Shown here in pieces: positions 6,940 through 38,311 of a stretch of 45,412 bases of DNA (its first letter is position 1; every line of letters starts with the position of its first letter). The DNA comes from Chryseobacterium gleum (GTDB lineage Bacteria > Bacteroidota > Bacteroidia > Flavobacteriales_D > Sanyastnellaceae), in contig CAMAYP010000005.1 in assembly GCA_945862415.1 (NCBI GenBank), positions 1 through 45,412 on the forward strand, in the 5' to 3' direction. The translations under genes and the position numbers were made by a program. The notes under the pieces are model-generated. The model had not been told where the DNA came from, searched no databases, and worked only from the letters and a program-made list of their open reading frames with translations.

Positions 6940-7632
6940 TCATGGCGCCAACAATTTAAATCCTTTGCCATGTATGTTGATTATCTCAACAGCTTCATCG
7001 TTTTTCAGGTGCTTGCGCAACTTGGCAATGTAAACATCCATCGAACGACCGTTAAAGTAATTGTCGTCACCCCAAATTGCCTTTAAGGCATATCCACGTT
7101 CCATGATTCCATTCTTGTTTTTACAAAGGAGATACATGAGTTCGTTCTCTTTGGTAGTCAGTTTCACCTCAAAGCCGGGCGATGTCAGTTTTTGCTTTTG
7201 ATAATCAAAGGCGTATGCACCAATCGTGAATTGAACATCCTCATTTCCATCGGGCAAGGCAGCTGTGCGTCGGAGTATGGCTTGAATTCTAACCAAGAGT
7301 TCCTCCATACTGAAAGGCTTCGTCATATAATCATCGCCACCCGCTTTGAAGCCCTCCAGCGTATCCTCTTTCATGCTTTTTGCAGTGAGAAATAAAATGG
7401 GAGTGTGTTTATCATCTTGCCGAATTTCCGTTGCCAGCGTAAATCCATCTTTTTGTGGCATCATGACATCGAGTATTAAAAAGTCGTACGTGCTTCGGCG
7501 AAACATCTTCAGCCCCTCATTGCCATCAACAGCCAAATCGGCGTCAAAGCCCTTTGCAATTAAATAGTCTTTCAGAAGAATTCCCAAGTTTGGATCATCT
7601 TCACACAGCAGGATTCTGGTTTTCTTTTTCAT
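6940..7632 (-). CDS. OmpR-family response regulator (RprY-like)
   Basis: A cytoplasmic transcription factor of 230 residues from the ATG at 7632 (a TTG two codons upstream also fits). The receiver domain has the acidic pair E11/D12, phospho-acceptor D55 in FLILDVMMPQKDG, and the T-x-K end of strand 5 (LFLTAKS). The C-terminal winged-helix DNA-binding domain is recognisable by FEVKLTTKENELMYLL and the SMDVYIAKLRKHL recognition helix, ending HGKGFKL. It overlaps the 3' end of the upstream kinase gene by about 30 bases, so the two are translated together. Domain layout and pairing recall the RprX/RprY system of Bacteroides; target genes cannot be inferred. It is followed after 124 bases by atpD. 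Confidence 0.93.
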   Translation of the reverse strand: MKKKTRILLCEDDPNLGILLKDYLIAKGFDADLAVDGNEGLKMFRRSTYDFLILDVMMPQKDGFTLATEIRQDDKHTPILFLTAKSMKEDTLEGFKAGGDDYMTKPFSMEELLVRIQAILRRTAALPDGNEDVQFTIGAYAFDYQKQKLTSPGFEVKLTTKENELMYLLCKNKNGIMERGYALKAIWGDDNYFNGRSMDVYIAKLRKHLKNDEAVEIINIHGKGFKLLAP

Positions 7633-9085
7633 GTTCAATAGGTATATGGATTGTGAAGGTGCTACCCTTCTTCAGTTCGCTGATAACATCAACCGTGCCG
7701 CCATGTTTTTCCAGGACTCCCTTCACATAACTCAGCCCAAGGCCGAATCCCTTCACATTGTGTATGTTTCCTGTTGGCACACGATATAACTTATCGAATA
7801 TTTTTCGTTGGTTTTCCTTGCTAATGCCAATTCCATGATCCGAAAAGGACAGCGCGATGAAACCGGCTTCATCGCGGGTTTCTATTTCCACCATCAAACT
7901 TTCTTCACTGTATTTCATGGCATTGTCGATGAGGTTGTATACCACATTGGTGATGTGCAACTGATCACCTCTCACCATTGAGTTTTTGGCATAAAACCGC
8001 GTGACGATTCGGCCATTGCGCGCTTTGATTTGAATTTCAATATTGGCAATTACTTGGAGAACGACCTGATGAATATCGAACATCTGCATCTTCAAGGTCA
8101 TTTGACCCTGTTCGAAGATGGAAGTTCGCAGCACATTTTCAACCAACACACCAAGGCGTTTATTCTCTTCGCGAATCATGCCCACATAGTTTGAAATTGC
8201 TCTTTCTCCCGTTCGCATATCAGGATCGCTCAATGCCTCGCAAGCAAGAGAAATAGTTGCAATTGGAGTTTTGAGTTCGTGTGTCATGTTGTTGATGAAG
8301 TCCGTTTTGATTTCACTCAACTTTTTTTGGCGATAAATAGTATTGATTGAAAAAGAAAAAAGCAGCATGATGAGAAGCATCAGGATGGCAGAAGTAGTGA
8401 GCATAGTACCCATTGTACTAATCACATATTGACGTTCTCGAGGAAACCAAACACATAGATAATTCGGATCAGCAATAGGATCGTTTGGGAAGAGCTGAAT
8501 CCGGTAACCCTCGCGCTGAATTTCATCGGCGCTGGACTTAGAAAAAACCGGAATGATTTCCACTTGCTGCAACTTATTAAACACCCCATAGGCATATTCG
8601 GCCTTCACCCCTTGCGACTCAAAGGACTGTTGGAGTAGCGTGTCGAGCACCAAGGTGTCAATACGATCAATTACGCTGGTATAGATATCCAACTCCAGAA
8701 GGCCTCCCATGATATCATCCAATATTCCGGATTGTGATAATATTGGCGCATCCTTAACACCGGCGGCGGCGAGCGGATCAACAGAAACACTGTCGGTTCC
8801 GAATGTAGATTGAGGCACAACGCTCACGTCGCCCCCTCCGTAGTTTATGACAAGATTTTCTTTATTAGGTGCGCTTAAACTTAGGGAGGAAGAGGTCTCA
8901 CCTTGAGTGAACTCTCGATTCTCGAGCTCATTGCTGATGTTCTTAAGGGCAATATTGATGTGTTCAGAAAACTCCTGCTCGCGGAGCGTAAAAACATTAC
9001 TAATCCAATACACCTGAATGGCAATTAAACCCAACACGGCAATGGTGCTGCCCACTACCAGCAAACGGATGTATTTAGTATTCAT
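7601..9085 (-). CDS. Membrane sensor histidine kinase (RprX-like)
   Basis: The protein has 494 residues from the ATG at 9085; an in-frame GTG at 9106 adds seven residues that break up the N-terminal membrane helix pattern. One membrane helix at about 7-27, then a periplasmic sensor region of about 200 residues with no recognised fold, then a second helix at about 226-248. No HAMP domain is evident. The H-box is NNMTHELKTPIATIS with H269. The N-box is NVVYNLIDNAMKYS, the G1 box SFSDHGIGIS and the G2 box GFGLGLSYVKGV, so the kinase looks catalytically complete. It autophosphorylates and passes phosphate to the response regulator encoded by the overlapping downstream gene. The signal is unknown. 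Confidence 0.93.
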   Translation of the reverse strand: MNTKYIRLLVVGSTIAVLGLIAIQVYWISNVFTLREQEFSEHINIALKNISNELENREFTQGETSSSLSLSAPNKENLVINYGGGDVSVVPQSTFGTDSVSVDPLAAAGVKDAPILSQSGILDDIMGGLLELDIYTSVIDRIDTLVLDTLLQQSFESQGVKAEYAYGVFNKLQQVEIIPVFSKSSADEIQREGYRIQLFPNDPIADPNYLCVWFPRERQYVISTMGTMLTTSAILMLLIMLLFSFSINTIYRQKKLSEIKTDFINNMTHELKTPIATISLACEALSDPDMRTGERAISNYVGMIREENKRLGVLVENVLRTSIFEQGQMTLKMQMFDIHQVVLQVIANIEIQIKARNGRIVTRFYAKNSMVRGDQLHITNVVYNLIDNAMKYSEESLMVEIETRDEAGFIALSFSDHGIGISKENQRKIFDKLYRVPTGNIHNVKGFGLGLSYVKGVLEKHGGTVDVISELKKGSTFTIHIPIEHEKENQNPAV

Positions 9086-32624: not shown

Positions 32625-33290
32625 ATGAAAACACCCTTCCGTATTGCTCAGTTCACCTTCAACGCATTTTCAGAAAACACGTACGTTATAGCTGATTCTG
32701 CAGGAATAGCTGTCATTATAGACCCAGGCATGACCGATGTGTCAGAAGATTCTATTCTGTTTGACTACATCACGGAGGAGCAGCTTACGCCGCAGTTGAT
32801 TTTAAATACGCATTGCCACCTCGACCACATTCTTGGCAACAGCGCAGTGGCAGAGCGTTATAGCATCGACATGCGATGCCATGCGAAAGAGCTTCCGGTT
32901 ATTGAGCGAGCCGCATCGACAAGTTTAATGTTTGGAATTCCATACCGCCCTACCGTGATGCCCGCTTCAACCATAGAGGAAGGTGAAACCATTCAGGTCG
33001 GTGAACTCCGGTTCGAAACTCTTTTTGTGCCCGGGCATGCCCCCGGCCATTTAGCCTTTGTATGCCATGAAGAGCGCATTGTATTCTCGGGCGACGTGCT
33101 TTTTAAGGGAAGTGTTGGAAGAGTCGATTTGCCCGGCTGCAACCCTGCCGATCTCGTACATTCCATTCAAACGAAAATGTATGCCTTACCTGATGACTAT
33201 GTAGTTTATTCGGGACACGGGCCACACACAACCATCGGCGAAGAAAAACGTGAGAACTTTTTTGTGCGCCCCGATTGGGCCGGATTATGA
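32625..33290 (+). CDS. Metallo-beta-lactamase-fold hydrolase (glyoxalase II-like)
   Basis: The protein has 221 residues. The zinc motif is complete: THCHLDH (H63, H65, D67, H68), GHAPGHLAF (metal His), SGDVLF (bridging Asp) and the final YSGHGPHTTIGEEK. No signal peptide, so it acts in the cytoplasm. It belongs to the small YcbL/glyoxalase II-like group that hydrolyses thioesters such as S-lactoylglutathione; as Bacteroidota often lack glutathione, the natural substrate is uncertain. The stop overlaps the opposing kinase stop by six bases. Confidence 0.9.
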   Translation: MKTPFRIAQFTFNAFSENTYVIADSAGIAVIIDPGMTDVSEDSILFDYITEEQLTPQLILNTHCHLDHILGNSAVAERYSIDMRCHAKELPVIERAASTSLMFGIPYRPTVMPASTIEEGETIQVGELRFETLFVPGHAPGHLAFVCHEERIVFSGDVLFKGSVGRVDLPGCNPADLVHSIQTKMYALPDDYVVYSGHGPHTTIGEEKRENFFVRPDWAGL

Positions 33291-35017: not shown

Positions 35018-35054
35018 GTGGGTGGTATTACTACGAATTTTTAGCGCTTCAAAG

Positions 35055-35082
35055 CAAGTTAATACAAGTTATGTCAAGGTTA
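35055..35082 (-). promoter_or_regulatory. Three direct repeats with 10-base period upstream of the PhoB-like gene (candidate operator)
   Basis: On the plus strand CAAGTTA occurs at 35055 and 35065, and CAAGGTTA at 35075. On the minus strand this reads as TTAAC/ATAAC/TTAAC units one helical turn apart. This spacing is what dimers of PhoB/OmpR-type regulators recognise; the half-site resembles the Bacillus Pho box TTAACA. A TTTG that could serve as a -33 box lies directly next to the repeats towards the gene (35054-35051 region on the minus strand), followed 16 bases later by a partial -7 (TAGTAATA). Confidence 0.55.
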
Positions 35083-35161
35083 ATTGATTATTAATCCATG
35101 CAAAACGAATCGCTCGCACATCCGATATTCGCCGCTGCAATTCGAGGTTAAAATTAAGGCA

Positions 35162-35959
35162 TTGAAAAATTACTTTGACAGTAAAACGATCTGGGTTACA
35201 GGTGCAAGCTCAGGTATTGGAGAAGCATTGGTATATGCTCTTTCCCATGCAGGCGCCAAGTTGATCATCTCAGCTCGTCGCGCTGCTGAGCTGGAAAGAG
35301 TAAAAGCTGCTTGCGCCCACCCTGAGCACATCGATATTCTTCCAATAGACTTAGCCTCATCCGATTCGGTGAACAAGGCTTTGGAAGATTGTTTTAGCCA
35401 CTATTCACGTGTCGACATGCTATTCAACAATGGAGGAATTAGTCAACGAGCGGAAGCGCTCGAAACGGACATAGATGTAGTTCGCAAAATAATGGAGATT
35501 GATTTCTTCAGCAACATCACCCTATCAAAAGCAGTTGCCATGCGCATGAAGGAACATGGCGGAGGCCACCTCATTATCACATCGAGTCTTATGGGTAAAT
35601 GGGGTTTCTTTCTGCGCTCCGGCTATGCTGCCGCAAAGCATGCTTTACATGGTTATTACGACTCAATGCGCATGGAAGTGGAGCAATACAACATTCAGAT
35701 TACCCTGCTTACTCCGGGGTTCATAGCCAGCGATATCTCTAAAAACGCCTTGAACGACGGTGGCATTGCTTCGGGTGAAATGGACAACAACCAAGCTTCA
35801 GGTATGAGCACAACACAATGCGCAGAAGCCATACTGAGAGGTGTCGCAGCCGGAAAAACAGAATTCGGAATTGGTGGAAAAGAATTGCTCGGTCTCAAGC
35901 TGCGCCGGTTTCTTCCGGGTCTCTTTGAAAAAATTCTCCGCAAACAATCCGCTCGTTAG
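35162..35959 (+). CDS. Short-chain dehydrogenase/reductase
   Basis: The protein has 265 residues from a TTG at 35162, which puts the fold start (MKNYFDSKTIWVTGASSGIG) at the right distance; the frame is open to a TTG at 35084, but no ATG is available. Classical SDR features are the cofactor motif TGASSGIG, LFNNGGISQR (the NNAG position), the catalytic Ser in LIITSSLMGKWG, and Y-x-x-x-K in SGYAAAKHAL. A helix at the C-terminus with many basic residues (LKLRRFLPGLFEKILRK) may touch membrane. Similar SDRs act on lipids, sugars or steroids; the substrate cannot be inferred. An out-of-frame 17-codon ORF (ATG 35098, stop 35151) precedes it. Confidence 0.88.
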   Translation: MKNYFDSKTIWVTGASSGIGEALVYALSHAGAKLIISARRAAELERVKAACAHPEHIDILPIDLASSDSVNKALEDCFSHYSRVDMLFNNGGISQRAEALETDIDVVRKIMEIDFFSNITLSKAVAMRMKEHGGGHLIITSSLMGKWGFFLRSGYAAAKHALHGYYDSMRMEVEQYNIQITLLTPGFIASDISKNALNDGGIASGEMDNNQASGMSTTQCAEAILRGVAAGKTEFGIGGKELLGLKLRRFLPGLFEKILRKQSAR

Positions 35960-37020
35960 TCGCGATCCTTAATCCGAGAGAAGCGCAATGCCTTCAGCAT
36001 GAAGTCGGGCAATGGCTTCAACGGATCACGCTTTTCAACGTTCAGAAACACTCCCCACTTTTCGATGATGGGTACTTTGTATACTTCAATCATCTCGATG
36101 AGTGTTCGATCATCGTCATGAATATAGGTGCAATGCACTTTCGTATTGCCCATGCTAAGCGCATTATTGCTGTCGCATGTGAAACCATATCCCGATCGTG
36201 AAAGGTCCTCACCCAACGCTTTCATACCCTTTACATCGAAGCCAATATGCGCAAAGCCGGTGTCGGCCCAAATTCGATCTTCAAAAATAAAATTCGGTTT
36301 TCGATCCAATGCCTGCACCAATTCGATGTAGGTCTTTCCGGTCACACGCGCAAAACCACCGCCTGGTTGGTTGCTTTGTGTGAGCAACACACGTCGGTAC
36401 GATTGTTTACCGGAAGGCAGCTCACTCCAATCATCAAACACGGATGTTGCATCATACACAACCTCGTCAAAACCTAACAAACCTGCATACAATCTCAACG
36501 CCTTCTCCATATCAGAAACGCCCGTCGAACAACCCAATACCCCACCGCTATGATGCCCGCTGTTGGTGTACCACGCATCGCCCTGGAGGTACTGCCAGCG
36601 ATTGCCGTCCGGGTCCTCGATGTAGAACGTTTCACGACCCAGCGGATCCTTTTGAATGGCAGTAAGGCCGCTTGCAACCTGTTGCTCGCAAAATCGGTAT
36701 GATGTACGCAAATCTCGGCATTTCACCTGCGTAATGAAAATGCCGAGATCGCCTATTTGCACTGCATTCTTTGCCTTAACAGGTTCAAATGAAGTTGGAC
36801 GTATTACCTCGATAGCACAGCCACCTTGCAGGTTCATGACCATGCTGGCTCGTTTGGTGATAGTAGCATTACGCGTGTATACATCCATTAATGGCGCGGG
36901 CTGAATGCTGTCGAAAAAAGGAATGTCGAGTCCGAAAAACGTACGATAAAAACGCAACGACAAATCCATGTCACTTACAGCCACGCCAATATGTTGAAGG
37001 CCATTGATTCTTTTATACAT
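35956..37020 (-). CDS. Double VOC (glyoxalase/dioxygenase-fold) protein
   Basis: The protein has 354 residues from the ATG at 37020 (a GTG one codon upstream is also possible). Two vicinal-oxygen-chelate domains are arranged in tandem. The first (about 8-150) starts LQHIGVAVSDMDLSLRFY and ends FYIEDPDGNRWQYLQ. The second (about 165-330) starts GCSTGVSDMEKALRLYAGLLGF and contains FAHIGFDVKGMKALGEDL and the end DDDRTLIEMIEV. Two modules make one metal site, as in extradiol dioxygenases and glyoxalase-like enzymes. H12, H255-type positions and the Glu residues near the end of each unit could be ligands. The first eight bases overlap the end of the acyltransferase gene, so the two are coupled. 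Confidence 0.87.
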   Translation of the reverse strand: MYKRINGLQHIGVAVSDMDLSLRFYRTFFGLDIPFFDSIQPAPLMDVYTRNATITKRASMVMNLQGGCAIEVIRPTSFEPVKAKNAVQIGDLGIFITQVKCRDLRTSYRFCEQQVASGLTAIQKDPLGRETFYIEDPDGNRWQYLQGDAWYTNSGHHSGGVLGCSTGVSDMEKALRLYAGLLGFDEVVYDATSVFDDWSELPSGKQSYRRVLLTQSNQPGGGFARVTGKTYIELVQALDRKPNFIFEDRIWADTGFAHIGFDVKGMKALGEDLSRSGYGFTCDSNNALSMGNTKVHCTYIHDDDRTLIEMIEVYKVPIIEKWGVFLNVEKRDPLKPLPDFMLKALRFSRIKDRD

Positions 37021-38311
37021 CACTTTTCAAATATGGAATTCGATTCAACCACTGAATCACGCTGTCTCTGTCTTTAACCCAGGCCAGAAACTCCGAGGAG
37101 TTGCGCATTCTGCGTATGCGTAAGGTATGCGTAAAACGTTTCACTGTGCGCCACCACGGCAATGTAATCAACCCGGCAGGTATAGAAAGCCACAACCAGA
37201 CGGCAATGCCCGAATCAACCCCTGCCCAGCGCAAGAGCCCATAGACTGAGCACAAATAGAGTGGGGTTATAAATGTCCAAAAGGAAATTCGCATGGAGTT
37301 TCGGAACAAAGGATCCTTCACAACACGATGCACAAACCGCTCTGTGAATAGTTGCACAGGCCAAAACACAAGGGCTGAAAGTAACGAAAATGGAAGACCC
37401 ACCAGCAGAAACAACACATGTAACAGATTGAACGGTGCAGCGTACAGCTCTTCCTCTATTTTCAGGCGATGCATACCGGTTCGATATCGATTCACTTCGT
37501 TATTCAAGAACGAATGATAAGTTGTATTTGCATCCAGCTCACCCGCAATCGCATGAAACATTTCGTACTTCTCCATGATGCTTCGACCGCTCAGTTTTTT
37601 ATCGGTCAAAGGCTTTAATGCGAGAATCTCTGAATGAACTTCATCGGTATCAATGTGTAGCATAAGTTTATGAAGAGCCACCTGCACCGCATGAGTAATT
37701 TCCGAATGTAATTTTGTATGAGTAATGTCCGGCTTTTCCAAAAAAGTGTCAACCTCGATGGGTTCACCGAATTTCACCAACAAGTTTTTTTGCGGCTCAT
37801 AAAAACTCTCATAGTCCAATCCTACTGGAACGATGCACAAGTCTCGGACACCCGATTCATAAGCACCAATAACCAATCGAGCCAAGCCCTTTTTGAGTGG
37901 CACCAATTGCTTCTTCCCTCTATGTGTGCCCTCCGGAAAAATCCCGATTACCGCATTGTTCTTCATGCGTTCATAGCACAATTGAAAAATCTCATTGTTG
38001 CGGTCATGCAAGTTTGCAACACGATCTCGCTCCCTGTAAACGGGCAGCATATTGATGCGACGAAGGAAACGATTGACTAGCGAATTCTTAAACACATCCG
38101 CGCGTGTGAGCCAGTGCAACTGCGTGGAAGTAGAAACACACAAAACGACCGGATCAAGTAATGCGTTTTGATGATTCGCCACAATAACGACCGGACGATT
38201 AGCGGGTAATCGATGTGCACCGGCAACTATTACTCTTCGAAAAAAGAAATGAATACCCGACCAAACGAATGGGCGAAGTACTTCGTAGATAAAAGATTTT
38301 TTTTGAGCCAA
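37013..38311 (-). CDS. Membrane acyltransferase with PlsC domain (Sct1/Gpt2-type motif)
   Basis: The protein has 432 residues. Start is a TTG (38311); no ATG or GTG occurs between the upstream in-frame stop and the conserved region. The acyltransferase motif I is NHQNALLD (H47, D53), spaced HX5D instead of HX4D, as in the Sct1/Gpt2 and related glycerol-3-phosphate acyltransferase branch. Motif III is GIFPEGTHRGKKQLVPLKKG (FPEGTH 125-130). The C-terminal half carries several membrane helices (about 290-395). Such enzymes acylate glycerol-3-phosphate or lysophosphatidate at the inner membrane. Located between gmd and the double-VOC gene and overlapping the latter by 8 bases. Confidence 0.87.
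   Translation of the reverse strand: MAQKKSFIYEVLRPFVWSGIHFFFRRVIVAGAHRLPANRPVVIVANHQNALLDPVVLCVSTSTQLHWLTRADVFKNSLVNRFLRRINMLPVYRERDRVANLHDRNNEIFQLCYERMKNNAVIGIFPEGTHRGKKQLVPLKKGLARLVIGAYESGVRDLCIVPVGLDYESFYEPQKNLLVKFGEPIEVDTFLEKPDITHTKLHSEITHAVQVALHKLMLHIDTDEVHSEILALKPLTDKKLSGRSIMEKYEMFHAIAGELDANTTYHSFLNNEVNRYRTGMHRLKIEEELYAAPFNLLHVLFLLVGLPFSLLSALVFWPVQLFTERFVHRVVKDPLFRNSMRISFWTFITPLYLCSVYGLLRWAGVDSGIAVWLWLSIPAGLITLPWWRTVKRFTHTLRIRRMRNSSEFLAWVKDRDSVIQWLNRIPYLKSDV

Follow-up and report, generated by a model that had tools for sequence, protein, structure and literature searches.

A probable PHO box of 11-bp TTAAC repeats upstream of phoBR in a Flavobacteriales genome lacking detectable Pst

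The window (the whole stretch of DNA analyzed, 45,412 nucleotides) carries direct repeats of TTAAC upstream of a phoB-like gene, spaced by 11 bp and in register with a Bacteroidota-type promoter box. The site is very probably the PHO box of the phoBR operon, an autoregulatory site at which PhoB would act as an activator in place of the -33 element, with control extending to phosphate uptake. This reading starts from what was observed in the genomes: the repeats, their period and phasing, their conservation, the genes they precede and the lack of PstC matches.

Repeat array and promoter upstream of phoB

The minus strand from 35094 to 35050 reads TTAAT-N6-TTAAC-N6-ATAAC-N10-TTGCTTTG, in letters TTAAT AATCAA TTAAC CTTGAC ATAAC TTGTATTAAC TTGCTTTG (Table 1). 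Read along the coding strand, TTAAC (35083-35079) and ATAAC (35072-35068) have their TAAC cores 11 bp apart, and TTAAT lies 11 bp further upstream. The -7 box of the window lacks the A of TAnnTTTG, and the start site of phoB is predicted at ∼35045. Several features of a PHO box are present: at least two direct repeats with an 11-nt period (35068-35094), a position ∼10 bp upstream of a -10/-7 element (N10 to TTGCTTTG), and the occurrence of such repeats upstream of phosphate-acquisition genes (DUF47-pit, including the one in the own genome, and npt). The unit is TTAAC/TTCAC and not the E. coli-type CTGTCAT, and the Pst and PhoU genes of a classical Pst-PhoU-PhoBR system were not found in the genome.

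Table 1. Features of the phoBR locus in the window, with the putative PHO-box units.
Feature	Coordinates	Strand	Remarks
Putative PHO-box unit 3 (far), TTAAT	35090..35094	-	in 11-bp register with units 2 and 1; TTAA(T/G) in most orthologues
Putative PHO-box unit 2, TTAAC	35079..35083	-	best-conserved unit in orthologues (mean 4.0 of 5 matches)
Putative PHO-box unit 1 (near), ATAAC	35068..35072	-	11 bp from unit 2; (T/A/G)TAAC in orthologues
Putative -7 promoter element, TTGCTTTG	35050..35057	-	one mismatch to the TAnnTTTG consensus; spaced 10 bp from unit 1; gap of 10 commonest in orthologues
First-described copy, CAAGTTA	35055..35061	.	overlaps the -7 element and the 10-bp spacer; unconserved, outside the array
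phoB-like OmpR/PhoB-family response regulator, 225 aa	34340..35017	-	profile matches; found in 60/60 relatives
phoR-like sensor kinase, 352 aa	33285..34343	-	only HisKA and HATPase domains found
Divergent SDR-family oxidoreductase	35162..35959	+	probable TTG start

The first-pass annotation had placed a triple repeat with exact 10-base spacing in this region. Its three copies (CAAGTTA at 35055, CAAGTTA at 35065 and CAAGGTTA at 35075) are all in the sequence, and they lie 38-65 bases 5' of the phoB ATG (complement, 35017), as described. The pattern CAAG-N6-CAAG-N6-CAAG occurs once in the window against 0.017 expected under a first-order Markov null, a figure qualified by the post hoc choice of this pattern out of many possible ones. 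The spacing is real and rare by chance, but the 10-base register is not conserved, even in the genus: in the 58 phoB upstream regions, unit pairs were 11 bp apart 30 times and 10 bp apart once. The conserved unit is TTAAC/TTMAC rather than CAAGTTA, and the third member of the array is TTAAT (unit 3) rather than the copy at 35055. The latter, which sits in the spacer and the -7 box, varies freely among sister species; congeners have lost it (L002 GAATGAACGTG, L004 GGATACACTTG, L005 TGTGTTGGCTTG). An operator made of three CAAGTTA units 10 bp apart would account for the exact 10/10 spacing, but neither this spacing nor the 35055 copy recurs in congeners or orthologues and the search of the own genome with CAAGNTAN3CAAGNTA returned only the original site, so that we regard it as highly improbable and dropped the CAAGTTA/10-bp consensus.

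The neighboring kinase gene is the same-strand neighbor of phoB in 51 of the 58 loci. The SDR gene is divergent to phoB in 16 of 58, so that one part of the family keeps this arrangement stably. The first-pass annotation had suggested that this gene could be co-regulated; both the orientation and the phasing of the array fit phoB, and none of the comparisons showed an effect on the SDR gene. Other conserved neighbors are a metallo-beta-lactamase-fold hydrolase downstream of phoBR (window 32625-33290; 29/58 loci) and a glyoxalase/VOC protein upstream of it (window 35956-37023; 19/58 loci). The window also encodes, at 6940-7638, another OmpR-family response regulator with 36% identity to PhoB.

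Conservation of the array and its phasing

A match to PhoB was found in all 60 relatives searched in the order, with a clear orthologue in nearly all, and the analysis of conservation rests on ∼58 upstream regions of these orthologues. Common to them was TTAAC-N6-TTAAC, usually with a third TTAA(G/T) 11 bp further up, and TAnnTTTG downstream. The GC-rich relatives (L013, L025, L030, L047) have degenerate units that have drifted towards TTCAC, the word also contained in the Streptomyces box GTTCACC (PMC4415409). The 11-bp pair was present in 27/58 phoB upstream regions (shuffle means of about 0.08-0.28 over the phoB, pit and npt sets), counts that are not independent events since the loci are related; the strict pair was missing in about half of the orthologues. 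The only spacing peak was at 11 bp, before phoB (30 pairs), DUF47-pit (10) and npt (11).

The array is in helical phase with TAnnTTTG, at 10/11, 21/22 or 32/33 bases and almost nowhere else. With strict units, the gaps upstream of phoB were 10 (8 cases), 11 (2), 21 (9), 22 (6), 27 (1), 31 (1), 32 (3) and 33 (2), where 21 and 32 also count more distant pairs belonging to one array and so reflect register rather than independent sites. Shuffled sequences gave essentially zero such gaps. The nearest good pair lies one turn farther from the -7 box in L028, L035, L042 and L043. The exact pattern TTAACN6TTAACN(9-11)TAnnTTTG occurred in 12 of 114 family genomes, with a single hit in each and always before phoB (eight assigned by coordinates, the remaining four by tblastn).

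A further 68 phoB loci from Bacteroidota (Flavobacteriales, Bacteroidales, Chitinophagales and others) were compared; TTAA pairs 11 bp apart occurred in 42 of them, against a null of 2.6 (maximum 8), and pairs of the same type were seen twice at 10 bp and four times at 12 bp. Further TTAA spacings in these 68 regions are 5, 6 and 16 bp, the half-turn positions inside an 11-bp array. Short AT-rich words are frequent between genes, and a functionless chance repeat could be built from them; the sharp spacing peak, the phasing with the promoter and the shuffle controls leave this explanation scarcely credible.

E. coli Pho boxes are located 10 bp upstream of the -10 element (PMC1906773), and the TAnnTTTG element of flavobacteria spans -12 to -5 (PMC9723704). 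The gap of 10 in the window equals the E. coli distance, and the array thus takes the place of the -33 element. An array that abuts the promoter could also be a site of repression, with PhoB covering the promoter core and shutting off phoBR or pit. In some bacteria PhoB acts as a repressor of the low-affinity Pit, which counts for this possibility. We consider repression rather unlikely, as the 10-bp gap matches the activating arrangement of E. coli (PMC1906773) and a competing -33 motif under the array was not among the conserved features in the comparison of 58 regions.

Phosphate transport genes and other candidate targets

PstC was not found in any of the 60 relatives (the control search was positive in 13 of 14 known genomes), and none of the 60 had a full-length PhoU above the cut-off (control search positive). 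The draft genomes are incomplete (the own genome 87%), yet Pst and full-length PhoU were found in none of the relatives. On this gene content, the array appears as the PHO box of a Pst-less Pho system.

Pit (PF01384) is encoded in 27 genomes including the own genome and an Npt-type Na/Pi symporter (PF02690) in 32, with little overlap; across the 60 relatives of the order the two are almost mutually exclusive. About seven small genomes without Pit and Npt still keep PhoB. The 11-bp repeats preceded DUF47-pit in 9/19 regions and npt in 11/19 (shuffle mean of about 0.1), compared with a pair in 1/30 regions of the ppk comparison set. In the own genome the pit site, GTAAC-AATATT-GTAAC, lies between two divergent DUF47 genes, 32 bp from TTCATTTG, and in the genus the pit boxes are 32 bp, not 10 bp, from the -7-like box. 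The complete own-genome search gave no more than 19 (D)TAAC-N6-(D)TAAC pairs, of which many lie inside coding frames; the intergenic ones include those of phoB and pit.

Thus the first-pass annotation's proposal of a PHO-box-like direct-repeat operator 5' of a PhoB/PhoR-like pair is borne out by conservation in orthologues and by occurrence at phosphate genes. The hits expected at phosphate genes are there, before pit or npt and not before pst, which was unfound in the order. The annotation had named as refutation repeats that are neither conserved 5' of orthologues nor linked to phosphate genes, and the comparison came out the other way.

An OmpR-family operator could instead serve a signal other than phosphate, for example envelope or redox stress, as has been argued from the ArcA-like motif of Riemerella anatipestifer PhoP, with the phosphate genes as only a part of a wider regulon. 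Both proteins score below the curated equivalog cut-offs for PhoB (TIGR02154, 213.7 of 296.2 bits; NF053854, 209.6 of 270) and PhoR (TIGR02966, 238.1 of 334.2 bits; NF053855, 174.4 of 500); the best curated models were TIGR02154 for the regulator and PnpS/PhoR for the kinase (263.2/238.1 bits), all under cut-off. The lack of Pst or full-length PhoU signaling partners in the 60 relatives points the same way, as do the 583 DAP-seq peaks of R. anatipestifer PhoP, for which the authors stress the ArcA-like motif (PMC9603813). Nevertheless, the repeats recur before two unrelated families of phosphate transporters, R. anatipestifer phoPR is reported there to be up in phosphate starvation (PMC9603813), and Flavobacterium johnsoniae phoB is up on Pi depletion (PMC8115612). 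A non-phosphate signal is therefore quite unlikely in our view.

Some other candidates were rejected as targets or search tools. The array-plus-promoter pattern with three mismatches gave 15 hits in the own genome against 55 in the reversed control and was unusable for regulon discovery. The ppk gene of the own genome has a single unit before TCACTTTG and, given the paired regions noted above, was kept for comparison. The ppk of one congener has a clear pair, TTAAC-N6-GTAAC, ∼50 bp before the ATG (L285 / L292, G003:C71), and most others have a single unit. A gene tandem at L312:314-6971 (G000:C58) encodes two PhoD-like phosphatases, both secreted and equipped with fibronectin III domains and type IX secretion tails. 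A TAAC-N6-TAAC pair lies ∼190 bp upstream of this tandem and a perfect TAGGTTTG just before its first gene. As a target the tandem was rejected: ∼155 bp separate the pair from the nearest good TAnnTTTG, and the phosphatase gene was not found in 35 relatives. At L311:975 (G000:C123), ATAAC-N6-GTAAC has TAAATTTG exactly 21 bp downstream and precedes the gene of an exported repeat protein, of which 491 residues are present before the contig ends; this gene is a possible further regulon member.

Comparison with known Pho systems

The array resembles the E. coli PHO box in its 11-bp direct repeats in the direction of transcription, which end 10 bp before the -10/-7 element and replace the -35/-33 element (PMC1906773, PMC4971064, PMC4415409). 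It differs in its unit, TTAAC instead of CTGTCAT, in the Bacteroidota TAnnTTTG promoter box, and in its targets, which are pit/npt and not pst. In cyanobacteria, the Pho box of SphR consists of three CTTAACCT joined by 3-bp linkers and shares with the array a nearly identical unit, the 11-bp period and the presence of three copies (PMC1906773); the window reads ATTAACCT-tga-CATAACTT. Unlike the window, the SphR box belongs to another phylum and promoter type, and the regulons of cyanobacteria contain pst and often show no autoregulation.

Within the phylum, R. anatipestifer PhoP binds TTTAACA and the promoter of its own operon (EMSA and DAP-seq), and thus shares the core word (PMC9603813). An 11-bp array or -7 phasing is not described in the text examined, and the likeness noted here is one of motif. 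In F. johnsoniae, where Pst is missing, PhoBR reacts to Pi depletion, an example of PhoBR-type control in Bacteroidetes without PstSABC; the operator is left undefined and a Pho box or promoter goes unmentioned in the text searched (PMC8115612). Bacteroides fragilis PhoB binds the pst promoter, with no box sequence found in the text searched (PMC3547664).

Proposed mechanism and implications

From the observations above we infer binding by PhoB, activation and a phosphate signal. Under phosphate limitation, PhoR would phosphorylate PhoB, and PhoB~P subunits would bind the 11-bp array of TTAAC direct repeats (35068-35094) head-to-tail, along a single face of the helix. As 10 bp separate the near unit from the -7 box downstream, PhoB would occupy the place of the -33 element and recruit the RNA polymerase of the main sigma factor at the -7 box, resulting in positive autoregulation of phoBR. 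The matching repeats before the DUF47-pit operon (npt in other lineages) would put phosphate uptake under the control of PhoB and allow its induction. More speculatively, in a Pst-less Pho system of Flavobacteriales the phosphate signal could reach PhoR from secondary transporters, whose PHO boxes would close a feedback loop; the obvious candidates are Pit together with DUF47, its PhoU-like partner, and the Na/Pi symporter with its PhoU domain.

In the open-access literature searched, no paper defining the 11-bp array with -7 phasing for Bacteroidota was found. The analysis provides a concrete predicted operator consensus for the phosphate regulator of environmental Bacteroidota without Pst, namely TTAAC every 11 bp, 10+11n bases from TAnnTTTG, and this consensus permits prediction of the regulon in a large Pst-less group of the phylum. 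The geometry of the E. coli PHO box relative to its promoter holds here under a different sigma-factor consensus.
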